Notes under the pieces: generated by a model | What the model was told of the DNA's origin: nothing | The model's database searches: none | What the model saw: only the letters and a program-made list of their open reading frames with translations | Translations under genes and position numbers: made by a program | Shown: positions 1 to 17,291 of the stretch, in pieces | Position numbering within the stretch: the stretch's first letter is position 1 | How the letters are laid out: the number at the start of each line of letters is the position of its first letter | Source: an uncultured Flavobacteriales bacterium | GTDB taxonomy: Bacteria > Bacteroidota > Bacteroidia > Flavobacteriales > Crocinitomicaceae | Reading direction: 5' to 3' | Assembly: GCA_946479985.1 (NCBI GenBank) | Contig: CAMLIF010000086.1 | Coordinates: 1 to 17,291, forward strand | Length of the DNA: 17,291 bases

Positions 1-25
1 CTGCAACTATTCTGCGTCTGCTCAT
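1..25 (-). CDS. tpiA: Triosephosphate isomerase, N-terminal fragment (runs off left edge)
   Basis: An ATG at 25-23 on the minus strand opens a frame reading MSRRRIVA before the window ends. Triosephosphate isomerases typically begin with a few residues followed by [RK]-x-[IV]-VAGNWKMN, so these eight residues fit the extreme N-terminus of glycolytic TpiA. The start lies 10 bases after the stop of the upstream membrane protein gene, which suggests co-transcription. In many Bacteroidota tpiA follows a DUF1599 gene and a membrane protein gene, which supports the call. Only eight residues are visible, so it rests on a short match plus conserved gene order. Confidence 0.7.
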
Positions 26-35
26 AATTGTAATT

Positions 36-962: not shown

Positions 963-966
963 TATT

Positions 967-1509: not shown

Positions 1510-1513
1510 AGAT

Positions 1514-2383: not shown

Positions 2384-2490
2384 TTTAAATTTCGCTCTCA
2401 AGATCACGGATAGAATCCTCCTGTTCGATTCACAGAATTTCTTTTATTGTTTCCAACCTTCAACTGGTTTCATGCATCTGTTAACTTGTA

Positions 2491-4494: not shown

Positions 4495-4498
4495 AGTA

Positions 4499-5308
4499 CT
4501 ATAACTCCTTAAAGAACTGAATATTTAACTCCCGAAACGCATCGTAAACCGCTCTGTTGTAATCAGCGTGCACACTGCTAACCGTATCTGTTGAAACCCA
4601 CGCTCTCACTAAAACATGGGGTGCTCCGCGCTGTAATCCGTTTAAAACAACTGTTGTTTCCAGCTTGGGAATAACACGCTTTTCTTCAAGAATTAACTTA
4701 TGGAGCGTTTCATGAGCTTTCAGATAATCAACTTCCGGATCTAAAACAAACGACCACTCTACTCTTCGCTTTTTTTCTTTGGTAAAATTCACCAGATTCC
4801 CATTTGCCAACGGTCCGTTCGGAAGAATAACCACCTTATTATCACCTGTATTGAGATACGTATAGAAAATTTGAATTTCGGTTACTTTTCCTTCATGAGT
4901 AAGCGCCAAAATAGTATCACCAACTTTGAAAGGTTTGAAGAACAAGATCATTACTCCACCGGCAAAGTTTGCAAGTGTTCCGCTAAAAGCCATACCGACA
5001 GCCAAACCTGCAGCTCCGAGTATGGTAATGAACGAGGTCATTTGAACACCAACCTGCGTAATTGCAGTAATAATTACCAGCACTTTCAATGAAATCACAA
5101 CAAGTGAGGTCAGGAAAGTAATTAACCCGGCGTCAGTTTTACTTTTTGTAAGAACTTTACGGATTCCCTTTCCTGCGGTTTTGGCAATCCACCAGCCAAC
5201 AATCACAATTAGAATTGCGATTGCCAGATTAGTACCAGCAGAAACGAGTTTATTCTTTACTTCGTCCCAGTTAAAACCCATTGATTTTTGAAGAATGGAT
5301 AATCGCAT
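4499..5308 (-). CDS. mscS: Small-conductance mechanosensitive channel (MscS family)
   Basis: About 269 residues from the ATG at 5308; an ATG at 5281 (MGFNWDEV) is an alternative giving 260 residues and resembles the usual N-terminal length of MscS. Three transmembrane helices are visible. The third is the pore helix with the family pattern ILGAAGLAVGMAFSGTLANF, then GGVMILFFKPFKVGDTI and the beta domain (KVTEIQIFYTYL, VILPNGPLANGNLVNF). This is the classic E. coli MscS architecture, which releases solutes on hypo-osmotic shock. The gene starts 12 bases after the menB stop and ends 4 bases before the thioesterase start, so it is embedded in their operon, although no metabolic link is evident. 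Confidence 0.93.
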   Translation of the reverse strand: MRLSILQKSMGFNWDEVKNKLVSAGTNLAIAILIVIVGWWIAKTAGKGIRKVLTKSKTDAGLITFLTSLVVISLKVLVIITAITQVGVQMTSFITILGAAGLAVGMAFSGTLANFAGGVMILFFKPFKVGDTILALTHEGKVTEIQIFYTYLNTGDNKVVILPNGPLANGNLVNFTKEKKRRVEWSFVLDPEVDYLKAHETLHKLILEEKRVIPKLETTVVLNGLQRGAPHVLVRAWVSTDTVSSVHADYNRAVYDAFRELNIQFFKEL

Positions 5309-5320
5309 TATCAATACAGA

Positions 5321-6142
5321 TTATGGGAATTTAGGGAACTGCTGGAAGTTTGGCTCGCGCTTTTCAAGGAAAGCACGTTTCCCTTCCTGTGCTTCTTCCA
5401 TCATATAATACATCAATGTTGCATCTCCGGCAAATTCCATCAACCCGCGTTGTCCATCCAATTCAGCATTCAATCCGCGTTTGATCATACGAACTGCCAA
5501 CGGTGAACGCTTCATGATCGTCTGACACCACTCAACCGTTATATCTTCCAAATCTTTCAAAGGAACTACTTTATTCACCATTCCCATTTTCTCTGCTTCG
5601 TCAGCAGTATATTGATTACATAAGAACCATATTTCGCGTGCTTTTTTCTGTCCGACATGACTTGCAAGGAAAGAAGAACCAAAACCGGCATCAAAACTTC
5701 CGACTTTTGGTCCTGTTTGACCGAAACGCGCATTCTCTGAAGCAATCGTCAAATCACAAACTACATGAAGTACATGTCCACCACCAATTGCGTAACCGTT
5801 CACCATAGCAATTACCGGTTTAGGCAACGAGCGAATGGCTTTATGGACATCCAGTACATTCAATCTTGGAACACCGTTTTCAGAGATATAACCACCAACT
5901 CCTTTCACATTTTGATCACCCCCGGAACAAAACGCTTTATCGCCGGCACCAGTAAGAACCACAACTCCAACATCTTGTCTTTCTCTGCAAATTTCAAGTG
6001 CATCAAGCAATTCAAAATTCGTTTCCGGACGAAAAGCATTGTACACTTTCGGGCGGTTTATAGTTAATTTGGCGATTCCTTCGAAAACCTCAAATTTAAT
6101 ATCTGTATAGGATTTTACTGAAGTCCAATTACGTTGCGACAT
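5321..6142 (-). CDS. menB: 1,4-dihydroxy-2-naphthoyl-CoA synthase
   Basis: Crotonase-fold enzyme that cyclises o-succinylbenzoyl-CoA to DHNA-CoA in menaquinone synthesis. From the ATG at 6142 (MSQRNWTSV) it is 273 residues, close to the family norm; an upstream in-frame extension would run into the promoter. MenB-specific motifs are FCSGGDQ (71-77), [10 protein letters not shown] (114-123, oxyanion region), [16 protein letters not shown] (140-155), [15 protein letters not shown] and the C-terminal FLEKREPNF. Gly at the QTGPK position (G144) marks the bicarbonate-dependent class seen in E. coli, as opposed to the class with Asp there as in M. tuberculosis. It is first in an operon with mscS and a hotdog thioesterase. 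The other men genes are not in the window. Confidence 0.96.
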
Positions 6143-6163
6143 ATCATCTTTATTTTGGTTGTA

Positions 6164-6197
6164 CAAAAATAAGAAGCTCCTAAGAATAGCGCACAAA
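6164..6197 (-). promoter_or_regulatory. menB promoter (TTTG-N22-TATTTTTG)
   Basis: On the minus strand TTTG (6197-6194) is followed after 22 bases by TATTTTTG (6171-6164), an exact match to the Bacteroidota primary-sigma consensus TTTG / TAnnTTTG within the 17-23 base spacing reported for Flavobacterium. Transcription would begin near 6158, giving a leader of about 16 bases before the menB ATG at 6142. The -33 box lies in the T-tract of the preceding terminator. Confidence 0.65.
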
Positions 6198-6222
6198 AAA
6201 AGGACAAACTTCTTTGTCCTTT
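6195..6222 (-). terminator. Intrinsic terminator after the acidic-tail periplasmic protein gene
   Basis: A perfect 10-bp inverted repeat (AAAGGACAAA, loop GAAG, TTTGTCCTTT, minus-strand reading) runs directly into a run of seven T. It sits 22 bases beyond the stop codon at 6244 and ends the group of exported-protein genes before menB begins. Confidence 0.9.
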
Positions 6223-6243
6223 CTATTTCTATTGTAAATTGAA

Positions 6244-6951
6244 TTATTCTTCTTCGTCACCTTCCTCGTCGGAATACTCTTCGTCAGAATAATCACCTTC
6301 CAACAATTCGTCCCCATCTACATATCCGGCAGGAATTTCGAAATTAAATGCTGCATTCGGATTTATAACAGTTGGTGTTTTGGCTACCAGGCGCAAGGTA
6401 CTTTTCGCACCGTCAAATTCCAGGTCGTAAGAAATAATTGTTCCTTCAGCCGTATCGAAAAAAGCCAGTTCATCTGTTGCGGAAAGATGTAGTCCAAGCG
6501 CCATCCAACCGGTTCCAACTACATTTTGTTCTTCATCCATCAATGAAATTTTCTGGCAATTGAATCCATCTCTGGTTTTCTTCTCCGACTCTAAACGGAT
6601 ACTTTCACGCATAGTGGTTTTAGGGCTCAGGAAATCGCTTGACTCGGAAACCATGAAAATTTCATCGCTGCTGGTTTCCCAAAAACTATTATAGTATTCT
6701 TTATCTGTTTCATCTTCATTTAAGAGTTCCAAAACACGCTTGTTCTTAATATCAACAAGAATTTTTTCATCCACATCGTAACTAAACGAGGTACTCATCG
6801 CAAAATAATCAGCATTCAGATGAATATCTATATTGGCGGTATCAGATTCATCTTCACTGCTAATAGTTAATTGGAAAGAATAGGTACCTGTTTTCTGTGC
6901 GAATAAATTACCAGCGAGACTTAGGCAGCATAGTAAGATTAGTTTTTTCAT
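6244..6951 (-). CDS. Exported protein, DUF4412-like, with acidic C-terminal tail
   Basis: 235 residues. An N-terminal Sec signal peptide (about 1-19, ending NLFAQ) is followed by a beta-rich domain beginning [13 protein letters not shown]. It resembles DUF4412-type periplasmic proteins of Bacteroidota: a long series of strands, a central GFNCQKI segment and a closing NFEIPAGY. The last ~24 residues are almost entirely Asp, Glu, Ser, Gly and Tyr, with YSDEE repeated twice. It is a paralogue of the next upstream gene (7040-7717): both share the signal peptide, the ILVD/VIVD-x-KK/SKK segment, CQK, a GTII/GMIL strand and a PAGY ending. A candidate promoter lies 34 bases upstream and a strong terminator follows. 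The function is unknown and the family name is tentative. Confidence 0.85.
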
Positions 6952-6984
6952 AATTGCTTTTAATTAAAGTGTGTGTTGTGTTAA

Positions 6985-6992
6985 CAAAAGTA
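6985..6992 (-). promoter_or_regulatory. Candidate -7 element TACTTTTG for the acidic-tail protein gene
   Basis: On the minus strand TACTTTTG exactly matches TAnnTTTG, giving a leader of about 27 bases before the ATG at 6951. The nearest TTTG suitable as a -33 box (7011-7008) is only 15 bases away, shorter than usual, so strength is uncertain. Three copies of GATTTTG (minus strand) lie at 6997-7003, 7008-7014 and 7023-7029. Confidence 0.4.
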
Positions 6993-7039
6993 AAGCCAAA
7001 ATCGGAACAAAATCCGGGAAAGCAAAATCTGACCGCGAA

Positions 7040-7717
7040 TTACTCCATTTTGGTGTATCCCGCAGGAACGTTCGTATTATAAATTTCATCTGACTCAGAA
7101 AAGTCAGGATCATATGCCAGACATTTCAATTCCTGAATACCAAACCCAAAATCTACTTTCATTTCCAAAATCATTCCCATTTTGGTGTCCAAAAAATTCT
7201 GCTTCCCGTCAATACTACAATGAGAATTTGGTATTACCCAACCTTCCACATCTGTATACTCTCCGGGTTCACTTACGAACGATTTATGTAAGACAAACTT
7301 CTGGCATGTTAATCCAAAAATAGATTTCGTTTCTGGTAAAAATTCGATTTCCGGTTCAGAAAATCGAATCCATAAAAGGCGTCCCATGAGAAAACTCTTG
7401 TAGGAAGATTCATCTATTGAATCAGTATAAGAAATTAAAGAAAATAGTTTTTCTGTATAATTTTCATTGATGACATATTTCATTAACTCCACCGCCTCTT
7501 TCTTTGAACGGTCAACTATGACGGATTCGGAAACAAACCCATCGAATTCAGACGAAATTGTAAAGAAGTTTTTTGATGAATAAACTTCCACCCGCTGTTC
7601 TTCTACCTGATCATCACTTAGGTTCGTAAACTTATAGTTAAAAGAAAAATGACCGTTGATCTGCGCAGCGCCAGCAAATGAACAGAATAAAAACAAACAG
7701 GCAGTTAGGTAATTCAT
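7040..7717 (-). CDS. Exported protein, DUF4412-like, paralogue of the downstream gene
   Basis: 225 residues with a Sec signal peptide (about 1-18, ending FAGAAQ) and a beta-rich domain that begins INGHFSFNYKFTNLSDD. It can be aligned by eye with the protein at 6244-6951: the shared frame includes YFxxS/FFTISS, ILVD/VIVD, GFNCQK/GLTCQK and PAGY near the end. It lacks the acidic tail. It starts 6 bases after the stop of the WG-repeat gene, so those two are almost certainly co-transcribed. It probably resides in the periplasm or on the inner face of the outer membrane; no enzymatic motif is visible. The tandem arrangement points to local duplication. The function is unknown. Confidence 0.82.
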   Translation of the reverse strand: MNYLTACLFLFCSFAGAAQINGHFSFNYKFTNLSDDQVEEQRVEVYSSKNFFTISSEFDGFVSESVIVDRSKKEAVELMKYVINENYTEKLFSLISYTDSIDESSYKSFLMGRLLWIRFSEPEIEFLPETKSIFGLTCQKFVLHKSFVSEPGEYTDVEGWVIPNSHCSIDGKQNFLDTKMGMILEMKVDFGFGIQELKCLAYDPDFSESDEIYNTNVPAGYTKME

Positions 7718-7723
7718 AGCTTT

Positions 7724-9823
7724 CTATTTAGGGATAACTAATGTGTTGGTCGACAACTGGAAATAGTTTAACTCCTGACCTTTGAACAACGCATACCAAT
7801 CGTCATCTATTTTCTGCATCCGGTTGTATTCAGCAGGAACAAGTAACTTGCCTTCGTTTGAATAAATCCCGTTTTTCGCGCCTTTGGTAACGTTGTAATG
7901 TGTTTTATCAATTCGATTCACGGTTGTAAATTCAATTGGAATAATCACTTTTCCGGCAGCATTTACAGCACCATAAACGGTCAGATTCTGAACAATCCCC
8001 AAACCATCTTTGAACGATTCGGTATTCTCATAAATCGGAGCTATTTTCCATTGATTTGCCAAATCAATATATCCCCATTTACCAGCTTTTTCAACGGCAA
8101 TCAAGCTTCCGACATCTCCCATTTTCGGGTAGCTGAACGGAACTATGGTTTTTCCGGTTTTATCAATAATTCCGTATTTACCTTTCAGAGCGGTTTTTGC
8201 GTAATTGCCAACAAAGGCACCATCAACCGTACAGTTTGTAAACTCATCAAACTTCAGAGGTATGGTAACAACGGCTCTGTTGTTGATATAGCCTACTTTA
8301 CCATCGAACGTTACCACTGCCAGGTTGTTTATTAATGAACTAACCGCATCTGCTTTCAAATCGAGCAATTTTCCGGTTTTGATATTGATAAATTCCAAAT
8401 ACTCTTCTCCTTCGTTTATTAAGATCGAATCTGAGAATGATATCAGATTTTCATACATTGGTTTTACAATGTAGCTGCCGTAAACATCAATAAATCCGGT
8501 ATAACCCTGATAAACAACTTTAGCACGACCATTCTCAAATGAAAAAGCTTCATCGAAAATGGCAGGAATCCGCTGCATTCCGAATCCGTCGTAATATCCG
8601 AAAAGACTGTCTTTCTGGGCGTACATCAATCCTTCGGTGTAAAGGCCTAAATCTTTGAATTGGGGAGGGATAATAAATGCCCCGGTTCTGTCGATACATC
8701 CATAAAGCCCGTCTTTCTCTATGATTGATCTTCCTTTCTCGAAATTAGTTGCGCTTTCAAACTGAAAAGGAACGACAACTTGATTGGATTTATTAACAAA
8801 ACCATATTTTCCGTTCTTCTCAGCCCAGGCCAAACCGTCTTTAAAAAAGCCAACATTTGTATATTGAGGTGCGATCAATGTCTTACCGGTTTGGTCCATC
8901 CAGCCGAACATTCCGTCGACCTTTAACGGAAGAAAAACAACTTCTGAAAGCGCAATTTCAGCATCAAGTCCGGCCATTCCCGGATAATTCGGGTATTCGC
9001 TTTTGAATCGTGCAATGCGTTCCTTCGAGAAATCAATCATATACAATTGATAGAGTCTTCGCCAGGCATCATCAACGTTTATATTATTCGGGAATTTCTT
9101 CAAAAAAGCATCCAAATCGGCAACCGTATTGTTCCTGGTGGAAAGCGCGTAAATTTTATCCTGGGCATCTTTCACAAATGGGTTCTCCGGATAAGTTGTT
9201 TCAAAGTTCATATAACTCACCAGTGTTCCCGCTGCCGTTTTTTCCATGTATTGCAGACGGTAGAATTCTTGTTTGGCTTTAAAGCGCAATTTAGATTCAG
9301 GGTATTTTGTGAGAAAACTTTGAAATGCGGCAGAGCTTGATTGTGTTTCGGCGGTTTTGTATGCAATAGAATCGCGCAGTTCAATTGCTGTGAAACGATC
9401 TTCGGCCCAGGGATGATTTGCCTGGAATGTATCAAATCCTTTTTCTGTCGGGACCTTCTTTTCCAGCAGGAAAAACTCATGTGAGATTTGCGATCTGTAG
9501 GAGGCAATGGTCAGATAGTCGAATCCGTATTTTGCCAGTTTTGTTTTTGTTTTTTCTGAAACGGTGCCATAGGTGCTTTCAGCAATCTTAATACAAATAA
9601 GTGCTGAATCAAGTGAATGGAACGGATTATCGGTTCTGAAATAGATCTGTGCCAATCCGAAATTTGCAGCGCATGGTTCTTTCTTAAGCGATTGTGCGAA
9701 TATTCTTTTTGCTTCAAAATAGTTAAACTCCTGCAACGCTTCGAATCCTTTGGTAATGCTGCCTGCAAAAACTGCCGATTGTAAAATGAACATTCCCAAA
9801 AACACAAACCCAACTCTTCTCAT
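7724..9823 (-). CDS. Exported TPR-like / WG-repeat protein
   Basis: 699 residues. Residues 1-20 form a signal peptide (MRRVGFVFLG then a hydrophobic core ending FAG). Residues 22-290 are helical repeats resembling tetratricopeptides of the YbgF/BamD kind, with recurring F-x3-YP-x-[SN] turns (TKYPESKLR, TTYPENPFV, KKFPNNINV, SEYPNYPGM). From about 303 to 690 there are eleven consecutive ~34-residue WG repeats, each of the form (D/N)G-x-[YFW]G-[FYI]-[IVM]-[DN]-x2-G-x3-[IV]-x-P-x-[YF]; the sixth is degenerate. WG repeats form beta-structured surfaces of largely unknown function. It leads a cluster with two exported beta-rich proteins, so a shared periplasmic or envelope role is plausible. A TATTTTTG lies only 4 bases before the start codon. 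Confidence 0.92.
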   Translation of the reverse strand: MRRVGFVFLGMFILQSAVFAGSITKGFEALQEFNYFEAKRIFAQSLKKEPCAANFGLAQIYFRTDNPFHSLDSALICIKIAESTYGTVSEKTKTKLAKYGFDYLTIASYRSQISHEFFLLEKKVPTEKGFDTFQANHPWAEDRFTAIELRDSIAYKTAETQSSSAAFQSFLTKYPESKLRFKAKQEFYRLQYMEKTAAGTLVSYMNFETTYPENPFVKDAQDKIYALSTRNNTVADLDAFLKKFPNNINVDDAWRRLYQLYMIDFSKERIARFKSEYPNYPGMAGLDAEIALSEVVFLPLKVDGMFGWMDQTGKTLIAPQYTNVGFFKDGLAWAEKNGKYGFVNKSNQVVVPFQFESATNFEKGRSIIEKDGLYGCIDRTGAFIIPPQFKDLGLYTEGLMYAQKDSLFGYYDGFGMQRIPAIFDEAFSFENGRAKVVYQGYTGFIDVYGSYIVKPMYENLISFSDSILINEGEEYLEFINIKTGKLLDLKADAVSSLINNLAVVTFDGKVGYINNRAVVTIPLKFDEFTNCTVDGAFVGNYAKTALKGKYGIIDKTGKTIVPFSYPKMGDVGSLIAVEKAGKWGYIDLANQWKIAPIYENTESFKDGLGIVQNLTVYGAVNAAGKVIIPIEFTTVNRIDKTHYNVTKGAKNGIYSNEGKLLVPAEYNRMQKIDDDWYALFKGQELNYFQLSTNTLVIPK

Positions 9824-9827
9824 ATCA

Positions 9828-9835
9828 CAAAAATA
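9828..9835 (-). promoter_or_regulatory. Candidate -7 element TATTTTTG immediately upstream of the WG-repeat gene
   Basis: Exact TAnnTTTG match on the minus strand, but separated from the ATG by only 4 bases and with no TTTG at the normal -33 distance. If used, transcription would start at or inside the start codon and give a leaderless mRNA. It may instead be a chance match in AT-rich DNA. Confidence 0.3.
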
Positions 9836-9893
9836 ATTTTAATTGAACAGACAGCGCATTCCTTCGGGCATGAAATTCTTACAAGTTTCCCTT

Positions 9894-9930
9894 AAAAACA
9901 AAAATCCTGCCCGGAAAAACCAAACAGGAT
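9894..9930 (-). terminator. Intrinsic terminator of rpmE2
   Basis: On the minus strand ATCCTG pairs with CAGGAT. The stem extends inward through TTTGG/CCGGG (three G-U and two G-C pairs) to a TTTTT loop, about 11 bp in all, followed by a T-rich tract. It begins 22 bases after the rpmE2 stop. Confidence 0.85.
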
Positions 9931-9951
9931 CTAAAAATATTGTAGAGAAAA

Positions 9952-10206
9952 TTATTTCTTGTACTTGCTGTAACGCGTGTTGAATTTGTCGATACGACCT
10001 GCAGTATCAACGAATTGAACGATACCAGTAAAGAATGGATGAGATTTGTGAGAGATATCCAATTTTACCAATGGATATTCATTACCATCTTCCCACTTAA
10101 TTGTTTCAGTTGAAGTTGCTGATGAATGGCATACGAATGAGTACTCATTTGTCATGTCTTTAAAAACAACCAATCTATAATCTTCCGGGTGAATTCCTGC
10201 TTTCAT
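9952..10206 (-). CDS. rpmE2: 50S ribosomal protein L31 type B
   Basis: 84 residues from the ATG at 10206 (MKAGIHPEDYRLVVFKD), the normal length of type B L31. Family features include the GIHP-x2-Y start, FVCHSSATS, WEDGNEYPLVKLDISHKSHPFFTG and the GRIDKFNTRYSKYKK end. The zinc-binding cysteines of type A L31 are absent (only one Cys), so this is the zinc-independent form, which in several bacteria replaces the zinc form under zinc limitation. A longer reading from a TTG at 10248 is rejected because that codon lies inside the promoter -7 element. It is a monocistronic unit with its own promoter and terminator. Confidence 0.95.
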   Translation of the reverse strand: MKAGIHPEDYRLVVFKDMTNEYSFVCHSSATSTETIKWEDGNEYPLVKLDISHKSHPFFTGIVQFVDTAGRIDKFNTRYSKYKK

Positions 10207-10229
10207 GTCTTTCTTTATATGTTCTTTTT

Positions 10230-10241
10230 CCGAAATTTCGG
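10230..10241. promoter_or_regulatory. 12-bp perfect palindrome at the predicted rpmE2 transcription start
   Basis: CCGAAATTTCGG is a perfect palindrome located 5-16 bases downstream of the rpmE2 -7 element, spanning the likely transcription start (about 10240) and the first bases of the leader. It could be a repressor half-site pair, or chance; no known regulator is recognised. It does not look like a classic Zur box. Confidence 0.35.
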
Positions 10242-10245
10242 ATTG

Positions 10246-10276
10246 CAAAAATAATTAAACTTTTCAATGAAACAAA
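10246..10276 (-). promoter_or_regulatory. rpmE2 promoter (TTTG-N19-TATTTTTG)
   Basis: On the minus strand TTTG (10276-10273) and TATTTTTG (10253-10246) are separated by exactly 19 bases, an ideal match to the Bacteroidota housekeeping consensus. The transcript would start near 10240 with a leader of about 34 bases. This also fixes the rpmE2 start at 10206. Confidence 0.8.
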
Positions 10277-10296
10277 CGTCTGAGGCGTTTTTTTTT
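10274..10296 (+). terminator. Hairpin plus T-run oriented on the + strand
   Basis: AAACGTC and GGCGTTT pair (7 bp, one G-U) around a TGA loop, and the right arm runs into nine consecutive T on the + strand. It looks like an intrinsic terminator, but no + strand gene ends here. Read on the minus strand, it follows the stop of the T9SS type A gene (10299), with only a short GTTTC tail. Its left arm overlaps the rpmE2 -33 box. Confidence 0.5.
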
Positions 10297-10298
10297 GA

Positions 10299-11501
10299 TT
10301 ATTCTACAATTAATTTCATTGGAAGTGCATTGACAGCGCCTTCAGGAATAACGAAATAAGCTCCGGAATTCAAATTACTAATATCAAACTGATTGTTTTC
10401 CGAGAAAATAACAGCAGCGGTTTTACCCGTCAGATCAATCACTTGAATCGATTTTACTCCATCTACACCTATCACTTTCAGATAATCGTACGCAGGATTC
10501 GGAACCATATTCCAATTGATCGTCTCTTCTGTTAAACCGACCGTGCAACCCGGGCTGCAGAATGTCACCGTCCCGGCAACTGTTCCCATATTAAAATCAA
10601 ATCCGTTCATAGAAGCTGTTGCATCACAAATGTCCAGTGTTCCTGTAATATCAGCGGCATTGTACGAATCACCAGCTACACAAATATCTCCTGTTCCCTG
10701 CACATCTTCTGAAAAGTAAAGATCTACAGCAACTGTAAGTAATCCGTTGTGATTAAATAATGCTGTTCCGCTTATCGTGTCACCTGAATAAAATGAGCCT
10801 AAACACTCTAATTCTGTTCCCGAAGAGGTTGTGAAATCTCCTGAACTGTACATGTTTCCGGAAGTATGGATAAATCCACCCGACAAATTTGCCGTTCCGG
10901 ATGTACCAAAAGCGGTAGCAAACGTATACCCGCTGGAAAACGTCATGGTTCCCGTATTTCCAAGCGAATCGGCCTGCATTTCACCGGCAAGTACAAAATC
11001 TCCTGTATTCAGAACATCTCCCGCCATCAACAATCCGTTTTGCTGGAATGTTCCCTCAGTTAGCAAACTGTCAACATCCAGTGTATTTCCGGCATTCACA
11101 TAAGTTGCAGTTCCTCCTACATACAATGCGTTATTGATGCGGATAGTTCCGCTTGCAGATGTACTTGCGGAGGCATTATCTGTAATAGAAAGATTTTCCA
11201 TTTTGAAATTCCCTGAAACATTCAACTCACTTCCCGAACCAAGGACCGCTAAACTATGCGTTCCATTTTGAATCAGCGCACCTGAAGAATTCACAGTAAT
11301 GGAGCCGCTGTTATTCACCAGCCAGTCTACATCCATACCTACCTGGTGATTGATAATGATATTGTCTCCTGTTCCCGGAAAGCAAAAACAATCCCAGGTT
11401 AGCGGGTTAGAAGCATTTCCATTTTGTGTTGAAGTAATTGTTTGTTGAGCAATAGATCCGAACGGAATAGTCATCAACAATAAAAGGTAAATTTTATTCA
11501 T
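10299..11501 (-). CDS. Secreted beta-repeat protein with T9SS type A sorting domain
   Basis: 400 residues. Signal peptide 1-19 (ending GSIAQ). Residues 20-330 form a Gly/Ser/Thr/Asn-rich beta-solenoid-like region with irregular repeats of the type (S/T)G-[NDT]-x(2-6)-(S/T)G, resembling adhesin or autotransporter-type stacks. Residues 331-400 match the T9SS type A C-terminal domain: MVPNPAYDYLKV, IQVIDLTGK, FDISNLNSGAYFV and a final MKLIVE. The product should be exported to the cell surface or medium. Notably, residues 122-341 contain no Lys or Arg, and the mature passenger up to 330 has only K100 and R121. The gene diverges from the beta-helix lipoprotein gene at 11599. Likely structural or adhesive; exact role unknown. 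Confidence 0.88.
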   Translation of the reverse strand: MNKIYLLLLMTIPFGSIAQQTITSTQNGNASNPLTWDCFCFPGTGDNIIINHQVGMDVDWLVNNSGSITVNSSGALIQNGTHSLAVLGSGSELNVSGNFKMENLSITDNASASTSASGTIRINNALYVGGTATYVNAGNTLDVDSLLTEGTFQQNGLLMAGDVLNTGDFVLAGEMQADSLGNTGTMTFSSGYTFATAFGTSGTANLSGGFIHTSGNMYSSGDFTTSSGTELECLGSFYSGDTISGTALFNHNGLLTVAVDLYFSEDVQGTGDICVAGDSYNAADITGTLDICDATASMNGFDFNMGTVAGTVTFCSPGCTVGLTEETINWNMVPNPAYDYLKVIGVDGVKSIQVIDLTGKTAAVIFSENNQFDISNLNSGAYFVIPEGAVNALPMKLIVE

Positions 11502-11598
11502 AGTAGTGCATTAATTATTCGGCGTAAAGATAAGGAAATACAAAATCATTTTTGACAGCACCCAATATTCTTGATTCTCTTTCGTTAATTTTAGCACG

Positions 11599-13014
11599 AT
11601 GAAATTTAAATACTCATTTTTACTTCTTTTTCTGATATCGCTTTCGGGTGCTTTTTTCACTTCTTGTAAGAAATTCAAAGGTGCAAGCAAAGGAAATCTC
11701 GATTTCTCAGTTGATACTGTTGTTTTTGACACCGTATTTACGACCATTGGTTCAACAACCAAACAATTCAAGATCTACAACAAAGAAGCAGGCGAAGTAA
11801 CCATTGAAGAAGTTCAATTGATGGGCGGCACAGCTTCTCCATTCAGAATAAATCTCGACGGTTTAAGCGGAACAAGCTTTTCAGAACTCAAATTAAAAGG
11901 CGGTGATTCGCTTTTCTGTTTTGTAGAAGTAACTCTGAATATTAACGGTGGAATTTTACCGTTGGTGGTGGAAGACTCCATCCGTTTCAGAAGCAATGGA
12001 GTTGATCAATATGTAAAACTTGCCGTTTGGGGACAGGATATGTATTACCATTATTCTAATTTTCAGGCAGGAATAATTGATACGAACGAAGGTACCTGGC
12101 CGAATGACAAACCGCATGTTATTTATGGTGCCGCGGTAATAGATTCTGCAGAAACATTAAATATTCAGGCGGGAACAGACATTTACCTGCATAAGAACAG
12201 TATTCTCTTCAATTACAAAGGAACATTAAACATCAACGGAACATTGGGTAATGAAGTGACACTGCAAGGTGACAGATTAGAGGCGGAATACGCTGATGTT
12301 TCAGGTCAGTATTACGGAATCTATTTCCAGGAAGCACGACCAAGCGTAATTGATTATGCAATTATCAAAAACTCAACAGCCGGAATTCATGTTTTCTCAC
12401 GCGATGAGAGTTTTTCCGGTCCAACAGTTAAAATCACAAATACAATCATTTCCAATGCCGCCAGTTACGGTTTATTTCTCTTTGCCAAGCCCATTGTAGA
12501 AGCTGAAAACACGTTGGTTCATAGCAACGGTGTTCATTCTTTGATTGTTCTCCAGGGAGCCGATTTCGTTTTCACTCATTGTGATTTCCTTGGCTACGGT
12601 GCCGGCGATCAAAGTACTCCTGCGGTTGGAATCCGGAATTATTACACGGATGCAGACGGAGTTACAACCGTAAGTGACATTAACCAGGGCGAGTTCAGGA
12701 ACTGTGTGGTGTACGGATACGGAGAAGACCAGCTTGCTTTCGATACTATTGGCTCCGGAAGTGTGAATATCAATATCGATTTTAGAAATTGCGTTTTGAA
12801 AACAACGATTGGCAACAATCCGATGTTTACCAGCTGCATCAAGAATCAGGATCCCGCTTTCCATAGTACCGGAGGAACCAAAAATTTCCAGGCCTGGAGT
12901 AATTCCTCCATGAGCGGAACTGCTGATCCGGCTTTTACAACAACACCAAATAACGACATTCTTGGAAATGCACGAAGTCTACCTCCTGACATCGGAGCAT
13001 ATAACGTTCCTTAA
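11599..13014 (+). CDS. Lipoprotein with Hydin/DUF1573-like domain and right-handed beta-helix
   Basis: 471 residues. A lipoprotein signal peptide ends FFTSC, with C23 as the lipidation site. Residues 34-145 look like an immunoglobulin-like beta-sandwich of the Hydin/DUF1573 type (VVFDTVFTTIGSTTKQFKIYN, then LKGGDSLFCFVEVTL). Residues about 170-460 carry right-handed parallel beta-helix repeats (INGTLGNEVTLQG, YYGIYFQEARPSVIDYAIIKNS, TNTIISNAASYGLFL, FRNCVVYGYG). The C-terminus RSLPPDIGAYNVP resembles the 'DIGAYE' ending of pectate-lyase-like choice-of-anchor Q proteins. It is probably anchored in the outer membrane and may bind or cleave polysaccharide, but no catalytic residues can be assigned. 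The ATG at 11599 is the natural start for the signal peptide. Confidence 0.88.
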   Translation: MKFKYSFLLLFLISLSGAFFTSCKKFKGASKGNLDFSVDTVVFDTVFTTIGSTTKQFKIYNKEAGEVTIEEVQLMGGTASPFRINLDGLSGTSFSELKLKGGDSLFCFVEVTLNINGGILPLVVEDSIRFRSNGVDQYVKLAVWGQDMYYHYSNFQAGIIDTNEGTWPNDKPHVIYGAAVIDSAETLNIQAGTDIYLHKNSILFNYKGTLNINGTLGNEVTLQGDRLEAEYADVSGQYYGIYFQEARPSVIDYAIIKNSTAGIHVFSRDESFSGPTVKITNTIISNAASYGLFLFAKPIVEAENTLVHSNGVHSLIVLQGADFVFTHCDFLGYGAGDQSTPAVGIRNYYTDADGVTTVSDINQGEFRNCVVYGYGEDQLAFDTIGSGSVNINIDFRNCVLKTTIGNNPMFTSCIKNQDPAFHSTGGTKNFQAWSNSSMSGTADPAFTTTPNNDILGNARSLPPDIGAYNVP

Positions 13015-13144
13015 GTTATTAAAACACTGAACTGTTTCTCAGCTAAGTAGTACCCAGGTTCGCAATTGCGCTTTGTTAAGGTGAAGTAAAATTACTATTG
13101 GAGCATGGAAGATTTCACACTAAAAAGATTCCATAAGAATATAT

Positions 13145-13171
13145 CGCGGAGAACGCGAAGAGCGCAAATAA
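13145..13171. repeat. Three degenerate 9-bp units in the 13015-13242 intergenic region
   Basis: CGCGGAGAA, CGCGAAGAG and CGCAAATAA lie head to tail with a CGC every 9 bases. The wording resembles the CGC-GAAG-rich intergenic repeat fragments seen in many Bacteroidota genomes. The rest of the 228-base intergenic stretch holds no ORF that I can support. Confidence 0.4.
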
Positions 13172-13198
13172 ATTAGAACGCCGGGAAGAACAGAGAAG

Positions 13199-13227
13199 TC
13201 TGAATCATGAATGATTCTTGATTCAGA
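13199..13227. repeat. Nested, mutually exclusive inverted repeats between convergent genes
   Basis: TCTGAATCA (13199-13207) and TGATTCAGA (13219-13227) form a perfect 9-bp inverted repeat with an 11-base loop. The left arm also pairs with a nearer copy: GAATCAT (13202-13208) and ATGATTC (13211-13217) around a GA loop. The two hairpins cannot form together. It lies just after the stop of a minus-strand gene and downstream of the beta-helix gene, so it may act in 3' end formation, but no T-run follows. Confidence 0.5.
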
Positions 13228-13242
13228 GGAAAGATGAAAGCT

Positions 13243-13779
13243 TTAGTTTGGCGGAATGAATTGGAGAGTTTTTTTAATTTGTCCAAGCTCTGAACCGTAT
13301 ACTAGCCGATTTATTTCTCTCCAATAATAAAACTCACAGTCTTTTGAGAGTTCTTTATTCCAATGTATATTCATCATATTTAGTTGTAAAAAAGAAATCA
13401 AATTCGAAATTCCTTCGGGGTTATCCTGATCACCATACACGTGAACCTTATATTTTTTGCCATCAAGTTTGAAGAGTAAATAATTATTACCCGCATCACA
13501 ACAGCCTTCATAATCCTCTTTCCAGTTATGAAAATCTAGACTATTAATTTCGTCCAATAGAAGATTATATGTGCTTTGTTTTAACTTTCCAGAATAACAA
13601 TATCCGAGTTTGAAATACTCATTCCCTTCACATTGGATTTTCACACTCCTGTCTTGAAGTATTTCTATCTGAAGAAAATAGGGCCTCCAATCACCTCTTG
13701 ATGCTAGAACAACAGAAGCTTTTTTGAAATGATTCCTGATTCTTGTTCTAGTCTCTCTAAAGATCAGTGTATCTAACAT
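13243..13779 (-). CDS. Hypothetical protein, possibly DUF6438-like
   Basis: 178 residues, no signal peptide and no transmembrane segment. The order of features (FLQIEILQDRSVKIQCEGNE, a tyrosine-rich strand, a helix LLLDEINSLDF, Asp-containing DYEGCCDAG, then LLFKLDGKKYKVHVYGD and a final helix) loosely resembles DUF6438-type proteins, which combine a DG-x-V strand with a later helix and a nucleophile-free core. That match is impressionistic. The gene follows the small lipoprotein gene after 54 bases on the same strand, so the two may be co-transcribed. Base composition appears more AT-rich than flanking conserved genes. Function unknown. Confidence 0.7.
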   Translation of the reverse strand: MLDTLIFRETRTRIRNHFKKASVVLASRGDWRPYFLQIEILQDRSVKIQCEGNEYFKLGYCYSGKLKQSTYNLLLDEINSLDFHNWKEDYEGCCDAGNNYLLFKLDGKKYKVHVYGDQDNPEGISNLISFLQLNMMNIHWNKELSKDCEFYYWREINRLVYGSELGQIKKTLQFIPPN

Positions 13780-13833
13780 GTCAACCTCATAATTAGAATT
13801 AAACCAACTTTTATCAGAAATAAATTTTAGAAT

Positions 13834-14133
13834 TCAATTATTACAACCTGCTATTCGTAAATAGTGATTTTCCTTTTTATGGCGTCTGTAATGGGAGTAA
13901 GTAGTGATTTTTATAGCATTACCCTTAATGATGTATTTGTTCTTTTCATTTCTGCACCAGTCAAAAAAACAAACACTGTCTTTGAAATAGAGATTTAATA
14001 GAGTCGTATCTCCATCTTCGTTTACATAATCACATTCCCAATTCCCCTGAATCAGTTTCTGATAATCCGGTTTTTCGTTTTCGCATGAGGTAAAAAGTAA
14101 ACCGGAAAGAAAGAAGATCAGGAATAAACGCAT
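13834..14133 (-). CDS. Small lipoprotein of unknown function
   Basis: 99 residues from the ATG at 14133 (MRLFLIFF). The signal peptide ends LLFTSC, placing the lipidated Cys at residue 17. A longer frame from 14199 is rejected because it starts inside the mdh terminator and hides this lipobox. The mature part begins NEKPDYQKLIQGNWECDYV, reminiscent of small lipocalin-like lipoproteins (LxGxW motif), but it ends early, after a basic YRRHKKENHYLRIAGCNN. Either it is a short member or the C-terminal strands have been lost. It precedes the hypothetical gene at 13243-13779. Probably an outer-membrane lipoprotein facing the periplasm; the role is unknown. Confidence 0.72.
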   Translation of the reverse strand: MRLFLIFFLSGLLFTSCENEKPDYQKLIQGNWECDYVNEDGDTTLLNLYFKDSVCFFDWCRNEKNKYIIKGNAIKITTYSHYRRHKKENHYLRIAGCNN

Positions 14134-14161
14134 AGATTGAATTTTGAAACCAATATAAAAC

Positions 14162-14190
14162 AAAAAATCCCGACACAAATGGCCGGGACT
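14162..14190 (-). terminator. Intrinsic terminator of mdh
   Basis: On the minus strand AGTCCCG pairs with CGGGATT (7 bp, one G-U) across an 11-base loop and leads into a run of T. It begins 22 bases after the mdh stop. Confidence 0.85.
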
Positions 14191-14211
14191 TTCAAGCAAA
14201 GCTTTTATTGA

Positions 14212-15150
14212 TTAAGCTGTAGCATTCATGTTGTCCAGAACATCCATTACACCTTTAACGGCAACAGCAGATTCTTCTAACATTTTGCGCTCTTCAGCGT
14301 TCAAGTCTAATTCAATGATTTTTTCGATACCGTTTTTACCTAAAATTACAGGAACTCCAAGGTAAATATCTTTCATTCCGTATTCGCCTTGCAACCAAGC
14401 ACAAACTGGGAAAACACGACGTTGGTTACGGATAACCGCTTCAACCATTTGAGCAGCAGCTGCACCTGGTGCATACCAAGCAGAAGTTCCCAATAATTTA
14501 ACGATCTCACCACCACCAAATTTAGTACGTTCGATGATTTCATCCAATTTCGCTGCGTCGATCAATTCAGTTACAGGAATACCTCCAACTGTAGTGTAAC
14601 GAGGAAGCGGAACCATTGTATCTCCGTGTCCACCCATTAATACCGCCTGGATATCTTTTGGAGAAACATTCAATTCTTCGGCTAAAAATGCACGGTAACG
14701 AGCAGTATCCAAAATACCAGCCATTCCGAATACTTTCTTGGAATCAACTTTAGCATTCAGGTAAGCACAGTAAGTCATTACATCTAACGGGTTAGAAACA
14801 ATGATAATTACCGCATTCGGTGAATACTTCACGATGTTCTCAGTAACTGTTTTAACAATACCAGCGTTTGTTGCGATTAAATCATCACGAGACATTCCCG
14901 GTTTACGCGGAAGTCCTGAAGTAATCACAACAACATCTGAATCAGCTGTTTTTGAATAATCGTTCGTTGAACCTACTGTACGTGTATCGTATAGGTTAAC
15001 AGGAGAAGTCTGCCAAATATCCAACGCTTTACCTTCAGCAAAACCTTCTTTAATATCTAACAATACTACTTCGTTAGCAATCTCTCTATGGGCTAATACA
15101 TCGGCGCAAGTTGCTCCAACGTTTCCTGCTCCAACTACAGTTACTTTCAT
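14212..15150 (-). CDS. mdh: Malate dehydrogenase (LDH-like type)
   Basis: NAD-dependent oxidation of malate to oxaloacetate in the TCA cycle; cytoplasmic. From the ATG at 15150 (MKVTVVGAGNVG) it is 312 residues, the standard length for the LDH-like MDH family. Visible features are the Rossmann GAGNVG loop, the acidic residue VLLDIKEG for NAD, the mobile substrate loop GLPRKPGMSRDDL with the Arg residues that select dicarboxylate over lactate, SNPLDVMTY, GILDTARYR (catalytic Asp and substrate Arg) and GGHGDTMVPLPR (catalytic His). The 29-residue upstream extension is rejected because it would include the promoter. It is a single-gene unit with its own promoter and terminator, divergent from the sigma factor gene. 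Confidence 0.97.
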   Translation of the reverse strand: MKVTVVGAGNVGATCADVLAHREIANEVVLLDIKEGFAEGKALDIWQTSPVNLYDTRTVGSTNDYSKTADSDVVVITSGLPRKPGMSRDDLIATNAGIVKTVTENIVKYSPNAVIIIVSNPLDVMTYCAYLNAKVDSKKVFGMAGILDTARYRAFLAEELNVSPKDIQAVLMGGHGDTMVPLPRYTTVGGIPVTELIDAAKLDEIIERTKFGGGEIVKLLGTSAWYAPGAAAAQMVEAVIRNQRRVFPVCAWLQGEYGMKDIYLGVPVILGKNGIEKIIELDLNAEERKMLEESAVAVKGVMDVLDNMNATA

Positions 15151-15192
15151 GCTCTTTTTATTAATGAAAAAATTCTTTGTTATTTTGCGACC

Positions 15193-15200
15193 CAAATTTA
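15193..15200 (-). promoter_or_regulatory. mdh promoter -7 element TAAATTTG
   Basis: Exact TAnnTTTG match on the minus strand, 42 bases upstream of the mdh ATG. There is no perfect TTTG at the -33 position; TTCT at about 16 bases may serve. The predicted leader is about 35 bases and contains AAAAAGAGC just before the start. Confidence 0.55.
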
Positions 15201-15315
15201 CGTATAATAGTTTGGTAGAACTAGCACTTATGTGCAAAAGTCTTTCAAATTGTGAATAGTTTTCTTTTGGCAGGCAACCCTGTTATTTTTTTGTCGTTTT
15301 GAATGTGTAACTAGA

Positions 15316-15888
15316 GTGAAAAAGGTCTTGGACTTAGAAGAATTAATAGGCGGCTGCAAGCGTGGCGAAAGGCGTGCGCAGGAGCAACTCTTCAAACTCT
15401 ATTTCGGTAGATTATTGAGTGTGAGCTTACGTTATATACCGGATAGAGACAGCGCCCAGGATGTTGTTCAGGAAGGCTTCATAAAGATCTTTGAACATAT
15501 TAAGAATTTCGATCAGAAAGGTTCAGTCGAAGGTTGGATGCGCAGAATTATTGCAAATCAATCCATCGATTTTATCCGGAAAAAGCGTAAAGACACGTTT
15601 CTATCAGCTGACGATAACGATTACAAATTTCTTCCGGACGATGAAGAATTAAAAGAAGATTGGAGTATTACAACAGTGAAAGCAGAACTGGCTATGGAAG
15701 CCATTGAAAATCTTTCACCGGCATATCGAACAGTTTTTAACCTTGCGGTAATGGAAAACTACACGCACAAAGAAATTGCCGAAATGCTGAACATCAACGA
15801 AGGAACATCGAAATCCAACCTCGCGAAGGCTAAGATGAATCTTCAGAACTATTTGAAAAAGAAATTTATTCAACTTGAAAATGAATAA
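15316..15888 (+). CDS. ECF-family RNA polymerase sigma factor
   Basis: 190 residues with a GTG start (KKVLDLEEL). Region 2 spans about 21-91: AQEQLFKLYFGRLLSVSLRYIPDRDSAQDVVQEGFIKIFEHI for core binding and -10 recognition, then GWMRRIIANQSIDFIRKKR. Region 4 spans about 127-180 (IENLSPAYRTVFNLAVMENYTHKEIAEMLNINEGTSKSNLAKAK), with the HTH for -35 recognition. There is no region 1 or 3, as in group 4 (ECF) sigma factors. The linker is acidic. The stop overlaps the ATG of the next gene by 8 bases, so sigma and its likely membrane partner are translationally linked. A poor TAnnTTTG-like site (TCGTTTTG, 15294-15301) lies upstream. Target genes cannot be read from this window. Confidence 0.95.
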   Translation: MKKVLDLEELIGGCKRGERRAQEQLFKLYFGRLLSVSLRYIPDRDSAQDVVQEGFIKIFEHIKNFDQKGSVEGWMRRIIANQSIDFIRKKRKDTFLSADDNDYKFLPDDEELKEDWSITTVKAELAMEAIENLSPAYRTVFNLAVMENYTHKEIAEMLNINEGTSKSNLAKAKMNLQNYLKKKFIQLENE

Positions 15889-17137
15889 AAATATTGAAGA
15901 ATTAATTAAGGAAGCCCTTGAAAACCATGACTCAGGATATGTATCCGGAGCCTGGGAATCTATGCAAGCCCGCTTAGACGGAACTCCTTCTACCCCATTC
16001 TATAAGAAATGGTGGGTTGCTGCTGCGTTTGGAACTGCTTTAGTTGGTTCTGCAACGTATTTTATGTTGAATAGCAACGATGTAACAGAGCAATCGACAG
16101 CTGTAGTTGAAAACACAACTCATTCTAATAAAGAAGCTGCTAAAACAAACGAAAACATAACAACTCACAATACAAATACTGATTCTCAGGAAATTCCTGC
16201 AGAAGATCAAACGGCTCAGAATCCGTCTACAGAAAAAATTATGTATTCCGGAAATGGTGGCGCTAGTATTAGTTGCGGGAGCTCAATAAGAAAACCACAC
16301 ACAACACCACAAGTTTTCCCAACAATTTCAAACGCACAAAATCCGAACGAAATCAATCCGAATGTAAACGAAACACTTCAATACAAACAATTAAGTCTTC
16401 CGAAGACCATTTGTTTGGGTGAAGAAATGTCAATCGTAAATACGAATGATGTACTGAACGTTGTTGTGATTGAGCCATCAGGAAGAAAAATAGTTGTTAC
16501 AGGTGGAAAAACAGCCGCTGTCAATACTTCTGAAAGTGGTACAATCCGGGTTATTTCAGGAACAACAGAAGATGTGATTGCTATTCAGGAAAACAAAGCC
16601 GATTTATACATTGATGTAGATGCTTCTTTGTTATTTGAGAACGGAATTCCTTCTATCAAATTCAAAGTTCCGGGCGAATCGAACCTGAACTGGTCAAGTG
16701 ATATTAAAGGAACAGAAATCAAAGGCGATACCTACATTGTTCACCCATATACTCAGAAAGAAGTAACTGTTTCGGTTTCATCTACCAATGAATTCGGATG
16801 TACAGCAACAGAAAAACAAACAATCAGCATCAACGAACCATACAACTTATTAGCTGCGAAAGGATTAAACACAAATAGTCCGGATGTTCGAAACAGAACG
16901 TTTATGCCTTATGCATTGACACAGCGTACAAATGTGAGTTTCGAGCTGATTATTATTGATCCGAGGAACGGAGCAATTGTTTATTCCACATCTGATGCGA
17001 GCGAAGCATGGGACGGAATTGACAAAAGAACTGGAGAAATGGTGAAACAAAATACAGTTTGGCCATGGAGGGTTTTAATGAAAAATCCAAACCCGGGTGA
17101 ACCGAAAGAATACTCGGGAACCATTACAATTTTGTAA
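15881..17137 (+). CDS. Single-pass membrane protein: anti-sigma-like N-terminus fused to Ig/PKD-like domains and a degenerate T9SS type B CTD-like module
   Basis: 418 residues from the ATG at 15881, which overlaps the sigma stop; a TTG two codons earlier is less likely. Residues 1-40 are a short cytoplasmic segment with the E-x-H then W-x2-M-x3-L pattern (LENHDSGYVSGAWESMQARL) common in membrane partners of Bacteroidota ECF sigma factors. One transmembrane helix spans about 45-63. A Ser/Thr/Asn/Glu-rich linker covers 64-165. Residues 170-240 (ICLGEEMSI start) and 241-316 (ending NEFGCTATEKQTISI) resemble the Ig/PKD domains of secreted adhesins. Residues 338-418 match a gliding-motility/T9SS type B C-terminal domain (TFMPYAL, FELIIIDPRNGAIVYSTSDASEAWDG, YSGTITIL) but lack the PN-x-DG-x-ND motif and the basic end. 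Anti-sigma activity is inferred from gene order. Confidence 0.85.
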   Translation: MNKNIEELIKEALENHDSGYVSGAWESMQARLDGTPSTPFYKKWWVAAAFGTALVGSATYFMLNSNDVTEQSTAVVENTTHSNKEAAKTNENITTHNTNTDSQEIPAEDQTAQNPSTEKIMYSGNGGASISCGSSIRKPHTTPQVFPTISNAQNPNEINPNVNETLQYKQLSLPKTICLGEEMSIVNTNDVLNVVVIEPSGRKIVVTGGKTAAVNTSESGTIRVISGTTEDVIAIQENKADLYIDVDASLLFENGIPSIKFKVPGESNLNWSSDIKGTEIKGDTYIVHPYTQKEVTVSVSSTNEFGCTATEKQTISINEPYNLLAAKGLNTNSPDVRNRTFMPYALTQRTNVSFELIIIDPRNGAIVYSTSDASEAWDGIDKRTGEMVKQNTVWPWRVLMKNPNPGEPKEYSGTITIL

Positions 17138-17159
17138 CACAACTACAAGAATACTACAG

Positions 17160-17195
17160 AAGGAAAAAGGGAATTTAATCGTTACCTTTTTTCTT
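17160..17195 (+). terminator. Putative terminator after the sigma / membrane-protein operon
   Basis: AAGGAAAAAGG (17160-17170) pairs with CCTTTTTTCTT (17185-17195), 11 bp with one G-U pair, around a 14-base loop; a T-rich stretch follows. It lies 22 bases beyond the stop and its right arm is inside the convergent partial gene. Confidence 0.6.
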
Positions 17196-17291
17196 GTGTT
17201 ATTTTTCGGAATTCTTCTGATTTGACAGAATCGGGGAACAGGAATTTATGAGCTTCTCTTACACGAATTTCGGTTACCAACTTGTAAATCT
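17182..17291 (-). CDS. C-terminal fragment of an unidentified protein (runs off right edge)
   Basis: A minus-strand frame is open from the window edge to a TAA at 17184-17182, giving 35 visible residues, ending FRKITQEKR. The other two minus frames are closed within the same stretch. The composition (charged, with EIRVREAHKFLFPDS) looks like a genuine protein end. It is convergent with the sigma operon. The family cannot be identified from so little. Confidence 0.5.
   Translation of the reverse strand, partial: IYKLVTEIRVREAHKFLFPDSVKSEEFRKITQEKR

Follow-up and report, generated by a model that had tools for sequence, protein, structure and literature searches.

A conserved sigma factor operon of Flavobacteriales encodes a putative transmembrane anti-sigma factor with homology to type B sorting domains

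We analyzed a stretch of 17,291 nucleotides (nt) from an uncultured Flavobacteriales bacterium of the Crocinitomicaceae (GenBank assembly GCA_946479985.1, contig CAMLIF010000086.1, positions 1 to 17,291 of the forward strand), hereafter referred to as the window, and focused on a gene pair close to its end. The first gene (15316–15888) encodes an extracytoplasmic function (ECF) sigma factor and the second (15881–17137) a membrane protein, here called S; the two genes overlap by eight bases (ATGAATAA, 15881–15888). Profile comparisons indicate that the C-terminal module of S is homologous to the CHU_C/TIGR04131 type B sorting domain of cargo proteins of the type IX secretion system (T9SS), and promoters of the type found in front of the pair precede T9SS cargo genes in related genomes. 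As a possible explanation, which we put forward tentatively and with somewhat less than even confidence, the sigma factor and S would form a cargo-mimic anti-sigma switch that makes the transcription of T9SS cargo genes depend on the state of the export route.

Sorting-domain homology, conservation, and anatomy of S

An 80-row profile of S residues 319–418 was compared with an alignment of 30 CHU_C cargo domains (29 loci and the window protein 2491–4071; L039 was dropped) using hhalign. The match had a probability of 98% and an E-value of 5.7e-13 over 90 columns, whereas ten column shuffles, the reversed profile, and the middle region of S all yielded E-values of at least 0.16. The original prediction, made from the letters of the window, had likened this module to the sorting domain of the protein encoded at 2491–4071, which proved to be a standard type B cargo (CHU_C 7.2e-18, TIGR04131 7.4e-15), and the profile-profile match bears out that likeness. 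The outcome of the proposed TIGR04131 check was divided. On its own, S of the window matched no Pfam or NCBIfam model at E ≤ 0.01, and so neither CHU_C nor TIGR04131, but distant family members did match. In total, 485 homologues of S were found at E ≤ 0.001, of which 120 were listed. Among near members, CHU_C was detected in 10 of 46 and TIGR04131 in none of 46 (E ≤ 0.01); among 18 distant members (alignment A4), 16 matched CHU_C (best 1.2e-17), 15 matched TIGR04131, and all 18 matched PKD_4 (E ≤ 0.001). Because these distant members match the models outright, the ancestral layout was probably an N-terminal segment, a transmembrane helix, a linker, two PKD domains, and a type B sorting domain, with the window form as a drifted relative.

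Single motifs were kept to a different extent. Among 121 distinct S proteins (118 distinct C-termini), W-x-G was present in every one, and 119 had a YxW-like strand by a loose definition. RWG occurred in none of the 121, as opposed to 42 of 49 cargo domains in the genome of locus L007 (G001; record named Fluviicola chungangensis). The motif P[DN][GAN][DN] was found in 22 of the 121 proteins, and the distant members carry motifs such as NLLAPNSFTPNGDGLNDYF and FTPNGDGxND. As a family, S does not share the conserved motifs of cargo domains, namely an N-terminal FTPNGDGxND and RWG. The statement that S lacks PN-x-DG-x-ND applies to the window protein but cannot be extended to the whole family, as 15 of the 18 distant members hold P[DN][GAN][DN]. 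For the SprB sorting domain, secretion requires each of five conserved type B motifs (PMC12618676).

The relation of S to individual cargo was followed in G001. A first ranking of C-terminal domains (CTDs) covered the 30 cargo domains best matching Pfam, which is a biased choice, and was redone on 49 of the 52 CHU_C matches of this genome. These fall into two sequence subclasses, one of which, with FTPDGDExN-like and YxW motifs, comprises 18 of the 49 domains. Fourteen of the 16 domains scoring best with the profile of near S members belong to this subclass. Furthermore, a PorP/SprF gene lies within 1 kb of none of its 18 domains, compared with 10 of the 31 others (Fisher p = 0.008), in a genome with 15 PorP/SprF genes. 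In Flavobacterium johnsoniae, three cargo proteins without a linked shuttle gene use one common shuttle (PMC12618676). A tree of 86 CTDs (106 columns, quick method) placed all S domains in one clade (SH-like approximate likelihood-ratio test, SH-aLRT, 99), while the FTPDGD/YxW subclass formed another (95) together with one further domain and all six type B targets of the promoter described below.

The pairing itself is conserved. Two outcomes that would have refuted the original prediction, a C-terminal module unlike sorting domains and a gene pair absent from relatives, therefore did not occur: a sigma factor open reading frame (ORF) lies immediately 5' of S in 68 of 70 loci of the order, and contig ends cut the other two. 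These 70 loci comprise the 30 best returned and 40 hand-chosen from ranks 94–150 of the best 150 matches (apparently one per genome) of a search with 80 S queries in 299 genomes of the order to which G001 belongs. The tally of 291 matching genomes out of 299 includes cargo and is therefore no count of S. Across the phylum, a profile of the distant members gave matches at 1e-40 in 15 of 395 genomes; judged by alignment span, only the one in G012 resembles a true S and the rest are long PKD/CHU_C proteins. At most four candidates per genome were scored in this search, which is hence no measure of absence. Where names were given, S homologues were called 'hypothetical protein', 'PKD domain-containing protein', 'PKD repeat protein', or 'gliding motility-associated-like protein', and none of the names listed refers to an anti-sigma factor. 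A Fluviicola-like sigma-S pair with Fluviicola-like target genes was also seen in L004 (CP034120.1, titled Glaciecola amylolytica THG-3.7). Glaciecola is a gammaproteobacterium; the title is probably wrong.

The features of the locus are listed in Table 1. ORFs, overlap, and coordinates of the pair agree with those predicted, with the start of S taken as the ATG at 15881 and not as the TTG at which the ORF opens (15875). The product of the first gene is an ECF sigma factor: it has region 2 (residues 25–92) and region 4 (residues 125–176), with no further sigma region found in its roughly 190 amino acids (aa).

Table 1. Features of the sigma-S locus (positions in the window).
Feature	Position	Strand	Basis
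ECF-type promoter GGCAACC-N15-CGTT of the sigma-S operon	15273..15298	+	17 nt upstream of the sigma GTG codon
ECF sigma factor, 190 aa, GTG start	15316..15888	+	Sigma70_r2 4.7e-17, Sigma70_r4_2 5e-15, sigma70-ECF TIGR02937 1.5e-27
S, 418 aa, putative transmembrane anti-sigma factor homologous to type B sorting domains in its C-terminal module	15881..17137	+	
S residues 1-44, conserved cytoplasmic segment, putative anti-sigma domain	15881..16012	+	profile of residues 1-66 matches partners elsewhere in Bacteroidota
S residues 45-64, predicted transmembrane helix	16013..16072	+	top Kyte-Doolittle window; model helix 44-64, low confidence
S residues 65-165, predicted disordered periplasmic linker	16073..16375	+	pLDDT <50 over most of 68-163; length kept more than sequence
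S residues 170-236, predicted Ig-like domain	16388..16588	+	strands in model; PKD_4 in 18/18 distant S
S residues 240-318, predicted PKD-like domain	16598..16834	+	model; weak alignment of the family profile to chains of collagenase (E 0.06)
S residues 319-418, T9SS type B sorting-domain (CHU_C) homologue without RWG	16835..17134	+	hhalign E 5.7e-13; CHU_C in 16/18 distant members

In its gene order and its single predicted transmembrane helix, S corresponds to what is expected of a transmembrane anti-sigma factor. The structure model reached block means of the predicted local distance difference test (pLDDT) of 82–97 over residues 171–418, which form three beta domains, and of 51–64 over the N-terminus and the transmembrane helix; the most hydrophobic stretch (Kyte-Doolittle) begins at about residue 45. 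Model and hydrophobicity agree with the membrane-anchored layout of N-terminal segment, linker, and immunoglobulin (Ig)-like/PKD domains in the original prediction, the helix being modeled with low confidence. By reading, a charged N-terminus of 44 residues is followed by a hydrophobic helix and the linker, and no cleavable signal peptide was recognized. No Pfam or NCBIfam model marks residues 1–44, a segment conserved beside homologous sigma factors. The distance from the end of the helix to the first conserved Cys is kept at a median of 117 residues (interquartile range 110–128, range 74–142, n = 52).

Structure comparison of the S model by Foldseek and VIA-align retrieved many Ig-like proteins, including GhpA fragments of Aureispira and PorM/GldM, and we judged these similarities to be generic for the Ig-like fold. 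No type B sorting-domain structure was among the matches listed; according to PMC12618676, none had been solved. A search of solved structures with the S family profile produced weak matches only (E of 0.06 and above). Matches of the single S sequence to GldM_3rd (0.027) and YidC (0.031) were set aside as generic matches of Ig-like and low-complexity sequence.

A spaced promoter pattern at sigma-S loci and candidate target genes

The promoter GGCAACC-N15-CGTT is the only match in the window when up to one mismatch is allowed. Since 96 of 200 shuffles also give at least one match under this condition, the call rests on conservation. RGCAACC-N15-CGTW is common to 12 Fluviicola-type loci upstream of the sigma gene, and 71 of 78 loci have GCAAC-N16-CGT 5' of it (mean 0.07 and maximum 2 in shuffles). 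The set of 78 includes seven duplicates as well as L011, which has a beta-barrel partner and is among the misses; counted by distinct loci, the pattern is present in 64 of 71, whereas among 27 related sigma genes with a non-CHU_C partner it occurs once. A complete absence from the latter, as obtained with a narrower stretch (0/27), was discarded, the longer stretch giving one strict and five relaxed matches among the 27. Hence, GCAACC often stands in front of ECF sigma genes in the phylum, and only the full spaced pattern marks S loci. GCAACC was also seen before sigma genes with a non-S partner in L011, L115, L116, L122, L132, and others, in most cases lacking a CGT at the S-family spacing; such genes may have the −35-like element in common with S loci and differ in the −10.

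We searched 11 Fluviicola-type genomes for the full pattern in two sets (42 and 35 sites) and examined 64 of the 77 sites; the 13 left out comprise eight before sigma genes (two of the first set and six of the second) and five others. As controls served 31 of 59 sites of the reversed pattern, i.e., all 25 of G001, G055, and G109 and six hand-chosen from the 34 of G002 and G112. Sites outside ORFs of at least 120 aa made up 36 of the 64, versus 4 of the 31 controls. A start codon followed 8–60 nt downstream at 29 of the 64 sites and at 1 of the 31 controls (Fisher p = 1.2e-5, a value that orthologues among the real sites make too optimistic). The 29 start-adjacent sites precede the sigma gene (3 sites) and six target groups, F1 (7; about 120 aa), F2 (5; about 144 aa), F3 (6; about 905 aa), F4 (4; 929–978 aa, a mixed group), F5 (2; about 95 aa), and F6 (2; 113–118 aa), and no other sigma gene. 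All non-sigma targets open with a signal-peptide-like sequence, as judged by reading.

The large targets include T9SS cargo. All four F3/F4 proteins scanned (L186, L197, L200, and L209) pass the cut-offs of both CHU_C and TIGR04131, and two F3 matches and one F4 match extend past the stretch read. Every type B target that could be read to its end carries a domain of the FTPDGD-like, YxW subclass, i.e., the one nearest to S by profile. For the small targets (L174, L172, L195, L177, and L179, representing F1, F2, F5, F6, and a group of 147 aa whose start is some 95 nt away from its site), scans gave no match to any family of Pfam or NCBIfam.

In four other genomes of the order, GCAACC-N15-CGTYT gave 18 sites, four of them before sigma genes, versus four sites for the reversed pattern; the strict pattern gave five sites in three other genomes, three of them before sigma genes. 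We fetched 15 non-sigma sites (14 of the 18 and one from the strict pattern), of which three lie inside ORFs and 12 outside. Four of the genes behind them, from three of these genomes, encode cargo: L294 and L303 are of type B (TIGR04131/CHU_C), with starts 59 and 66 nt away, the latter exceeding the limit of 8–60 nt used for the Fluviicola-type genomes, and L296 and L305 are of type A (TIGR04183/Por_Secre_tail), with starts 39 and 22 nt away. At three of the 12 sites outside ORFs, no start was listed, or merely an ORF of 60 aa about 100 nt off. Small proteins of similar size (L297 and L299) follow the promoter in another genome. Promoters of this type thus precede T9SS cargo genes, and it would be the sigma factor paired with S, and not another one, that uses them. 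A one-mismatch scan of G001 and G055 revealed no excess over the control, and inspection by eye of two gene starts allowed no further cargo promoter to be assigned. No gene for a protease, a chaperone, a component of the T9SS machinery, or a repair function was recognized behind the assignable sites, and the small targets have no known function. Within the window, a type A cargo gene (TIGR04183 5.4e-6, Por_Secre_tail 1.1e-7) was also noted on the reverse strand at 10299–11501.

A possible cargo-mimic switch and competing explanations

How these elements might work together can be outlined as follows. The conserved promoter sites suggest that the sigma factor switches on its own operon together with genes of exported proteins, including T9SS cargo. 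S would reside in the inner membrane, with its N-terminal segment holding the sigma factor, and a flexible tether of about 100 residues would present the cargo-like type B domain in the periplasm. There, the sorting domain may bind the outer-membrane collector of related cargo, the likeliest candidate being a PorP/SprF-type shuttle common to cargo proteins without a shuttle gene of their own. Having lost RWG and being anchored, S itself would not be exported, and cargo and S would compete for the shuttle. With the route free, S would dock, and its release or cleavage would free the sigma factor for more cargo synthesis; with cargo plentiful, S would be displaced and the sigma factor held. We prefer this direction because the assignable sites lead to genes of cargo and further exported proteins, and none of them was recognized to precede a repair or machinery gene. 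The original prediction had proposed that S may sense T9SS occupancy or envelope state, and the scheme follows it to that extent. With a little more reserve, we suggest that S acts as a decoy, vying with cargo for an outer-membrane shuttle or translocon that both use, and that it provides a homeostatic read-out of T9SS export capacity, following a logic like that of FlgM.

The orthology that flatters the Fisher test is one of several points that weigh against a cargo-mimic switch. In the tree, the S clade stands beside the cargo subclass and not inside it, and the branch uniting the two is weak (84). The total number of promoter sites in the 11 Fluviicola-type genomes is no higher than that of the reversed pattern (42 vs. 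59 and 35 vs. 36), and a sorting domain is absent from many of the targets, which are small exported proteins. By eye, the G001 orthologues of two F4 cargo genes have no site within one mismatch, and the type B cargo gene of the window (2491–4071) lacks the promoter site, its sorting domain being of the other subclass. Finally, 5 of the 27 related sigma genes with non-CHU_C partners carry the relaxed pattern GCAAC-N14..18-CGT (shuffles 0.2), and 19 of the 27 have GCAACC by itself close to their start. Some of these promoters may be used by other ECF sigma factors as well, and because GCAACC alone is common before related sigma genes, the assignment of targets is tentative.

Among the competing explanations, the one that survives best, though we regard it as rather unlikely, is that S is an ordinary transmembrane anti-sigma factor sensing an unrelated ligand or a mechanical cue, with the sorting fold recruited as an Ig-like module outside of the T9SS. 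The loss of RWG from all 121 proteins, the drift of the window protein beyond the reach of Pfam and NCBIfam, the separate clade, and the generic nature of PKD/Ig folds with their broad structure matches would all fit such a history. However, W-x-G has been kept throughout the family and the YxW-like strand in nearly all members, distant members retain FTPNGDGxND, and promoter sites of this type precede T9SS cargo. An improbable alternative is that the T9SS translocon or a shuttle holds the sorting domain or lets it pass through. S would then extend across the whole envelope and report on conditions at the cell surface. RWG is missing from S, and in the SprB domain each of the five type B motifs is needed for secretion (PMC12618676); moreover, S has a transmembrane anchor and, by reading, no cleavable signal peptide. 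The linker of about 100 residues with its conserved length speaks for this alternative, as do a beta-barrel version of the same scaffold (see below), which may report from the outer membrane, and PorA, a surface CTD protein that feeds PorXY-SigP (PMC7712824). Very unlikely, finally, is a stress sensor in the manner of RseA/DegS, in which a periplasmic pile-up of cargo displaces S and triggers the sigma factor: it would also account for a cargo-like domain on an anti-sigma factor, and unfolded outer-membrane proteins trigger the RpoE response (PMC8103513), but the assignable sites lead to cargo and small exported proteins, with no protease, chaperone, or T9SS machinery gene recognized.

The N-terminal scaffold in other Bacteroidota and comparison with known systems

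With the window sigma factor as query, 30 loci were returned from the 395 genomes of the phylum, and the downstream protein matched the profile of S residues 1–66 in 25 of them (E ≤ 1e-4). The partner is of the CHU_C type in three of the 30 (L112–L114). Ten partners that looked like beta-barrels, nine from the 30 loci and L011, were picked by hand, and nine of these matched OMP_b-brl_2 or OMP_b-brl (E ≤ 0.01). Several other partners among the 30 loci are short and show no domain. The same N-terminal profile matches CHU_C-type and beta-barrel partners, which argues for a domain swap: one scaffold thus appears to bear either an outer-membrane beta-barrel or the domain type that binds outer-membrane shuttles. 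The N-terminal anti-sigma-like segment appears tandemly duplicated ahead of the transmembrane helix in L081, L087, L089, L100, and L111, and several copies of it were seen by eye in the partners L122 and L134 of other Bacteroidota.

To our knowledge, it is an open question by what means Bacteroidota adjust T9SS cargo production to the capacity for export. The sigma-S pair is a candidate link in a widespread lineage, with a defined sigma factor, promoter, sensor domain, targets, and a candidate receptor class (PorP/SprF-like), and the occurrence of either a beta-barrel or a sorting domain on one scaffold suggests contact with the outer membrane as a shared principle. We regard S as a putative transmembrane anti-sigma factor whose sensor is of a new type. 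No anti-sigma factor with a sorting domain was described in the literature searched (titles and abstract openings, with few subscription papers or bioRxiv preprints covered), and in one survey a class I anti-sigma domain was found near just 6% of Bacteroidetes ECF sigma factors (PMC7406223).

One close parallel is PorA/PorXY-SigP of Porphyromonas gingivalis (PMC7712824), in which a sorting-domain protein likewise precedes a T9SS-linked ECF sigma factor in the signaling pathway. Unlike S, PorA has a signal peptide, reaches the surface, and acts through PorXY, whereas S carries the sorting domain within the putative anti-sigma factor itself. SigP, once activated by PorX, raises the expression of T9SS component genes (PMC7712824), whereas the sites of the sigma-S type precede cargo genes. 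The SM6 promoters of Flavobacterium psychrophilum (PMC9723704) resemble those described here in being of the ECF type with a CGT box and in preceding T9SS-related genes and a sigma/anti-sigma pair (THC0290_1774/1773), but their targets include the machinery proteins GldN and PorU. The type B sorting domain PF13585/TIGR04131, which works with PorP/SprF shuttles (PMC12618676, PMC9143113), is homologous to the C-terminal module, and distant S members pass the Pfam model. S differs from type B cargo by its N-terminal transmembrane anchor, by the lack of RWG and, by reading, of a signal peptide, and by being encoded together with a sigma factor. The beta-barrel anti-sigma-like proteins (L117, L121, L124, and others) share the N-terminal segment, the transmembrane helix, and the linker with S and are likewise encoded beside a homologous ECF sigma factor, but have a C-terminal beta-barrel in place of the PKD and sorting domains. 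FlgM, a soluble anti-sigma28 factor, is exported by the flagellar apparatus. As with FlgM, S would tie sigma factor activity to how a secretion system is faring, although in S the coupling element is membrane-anchored and the secretion system is a different one.

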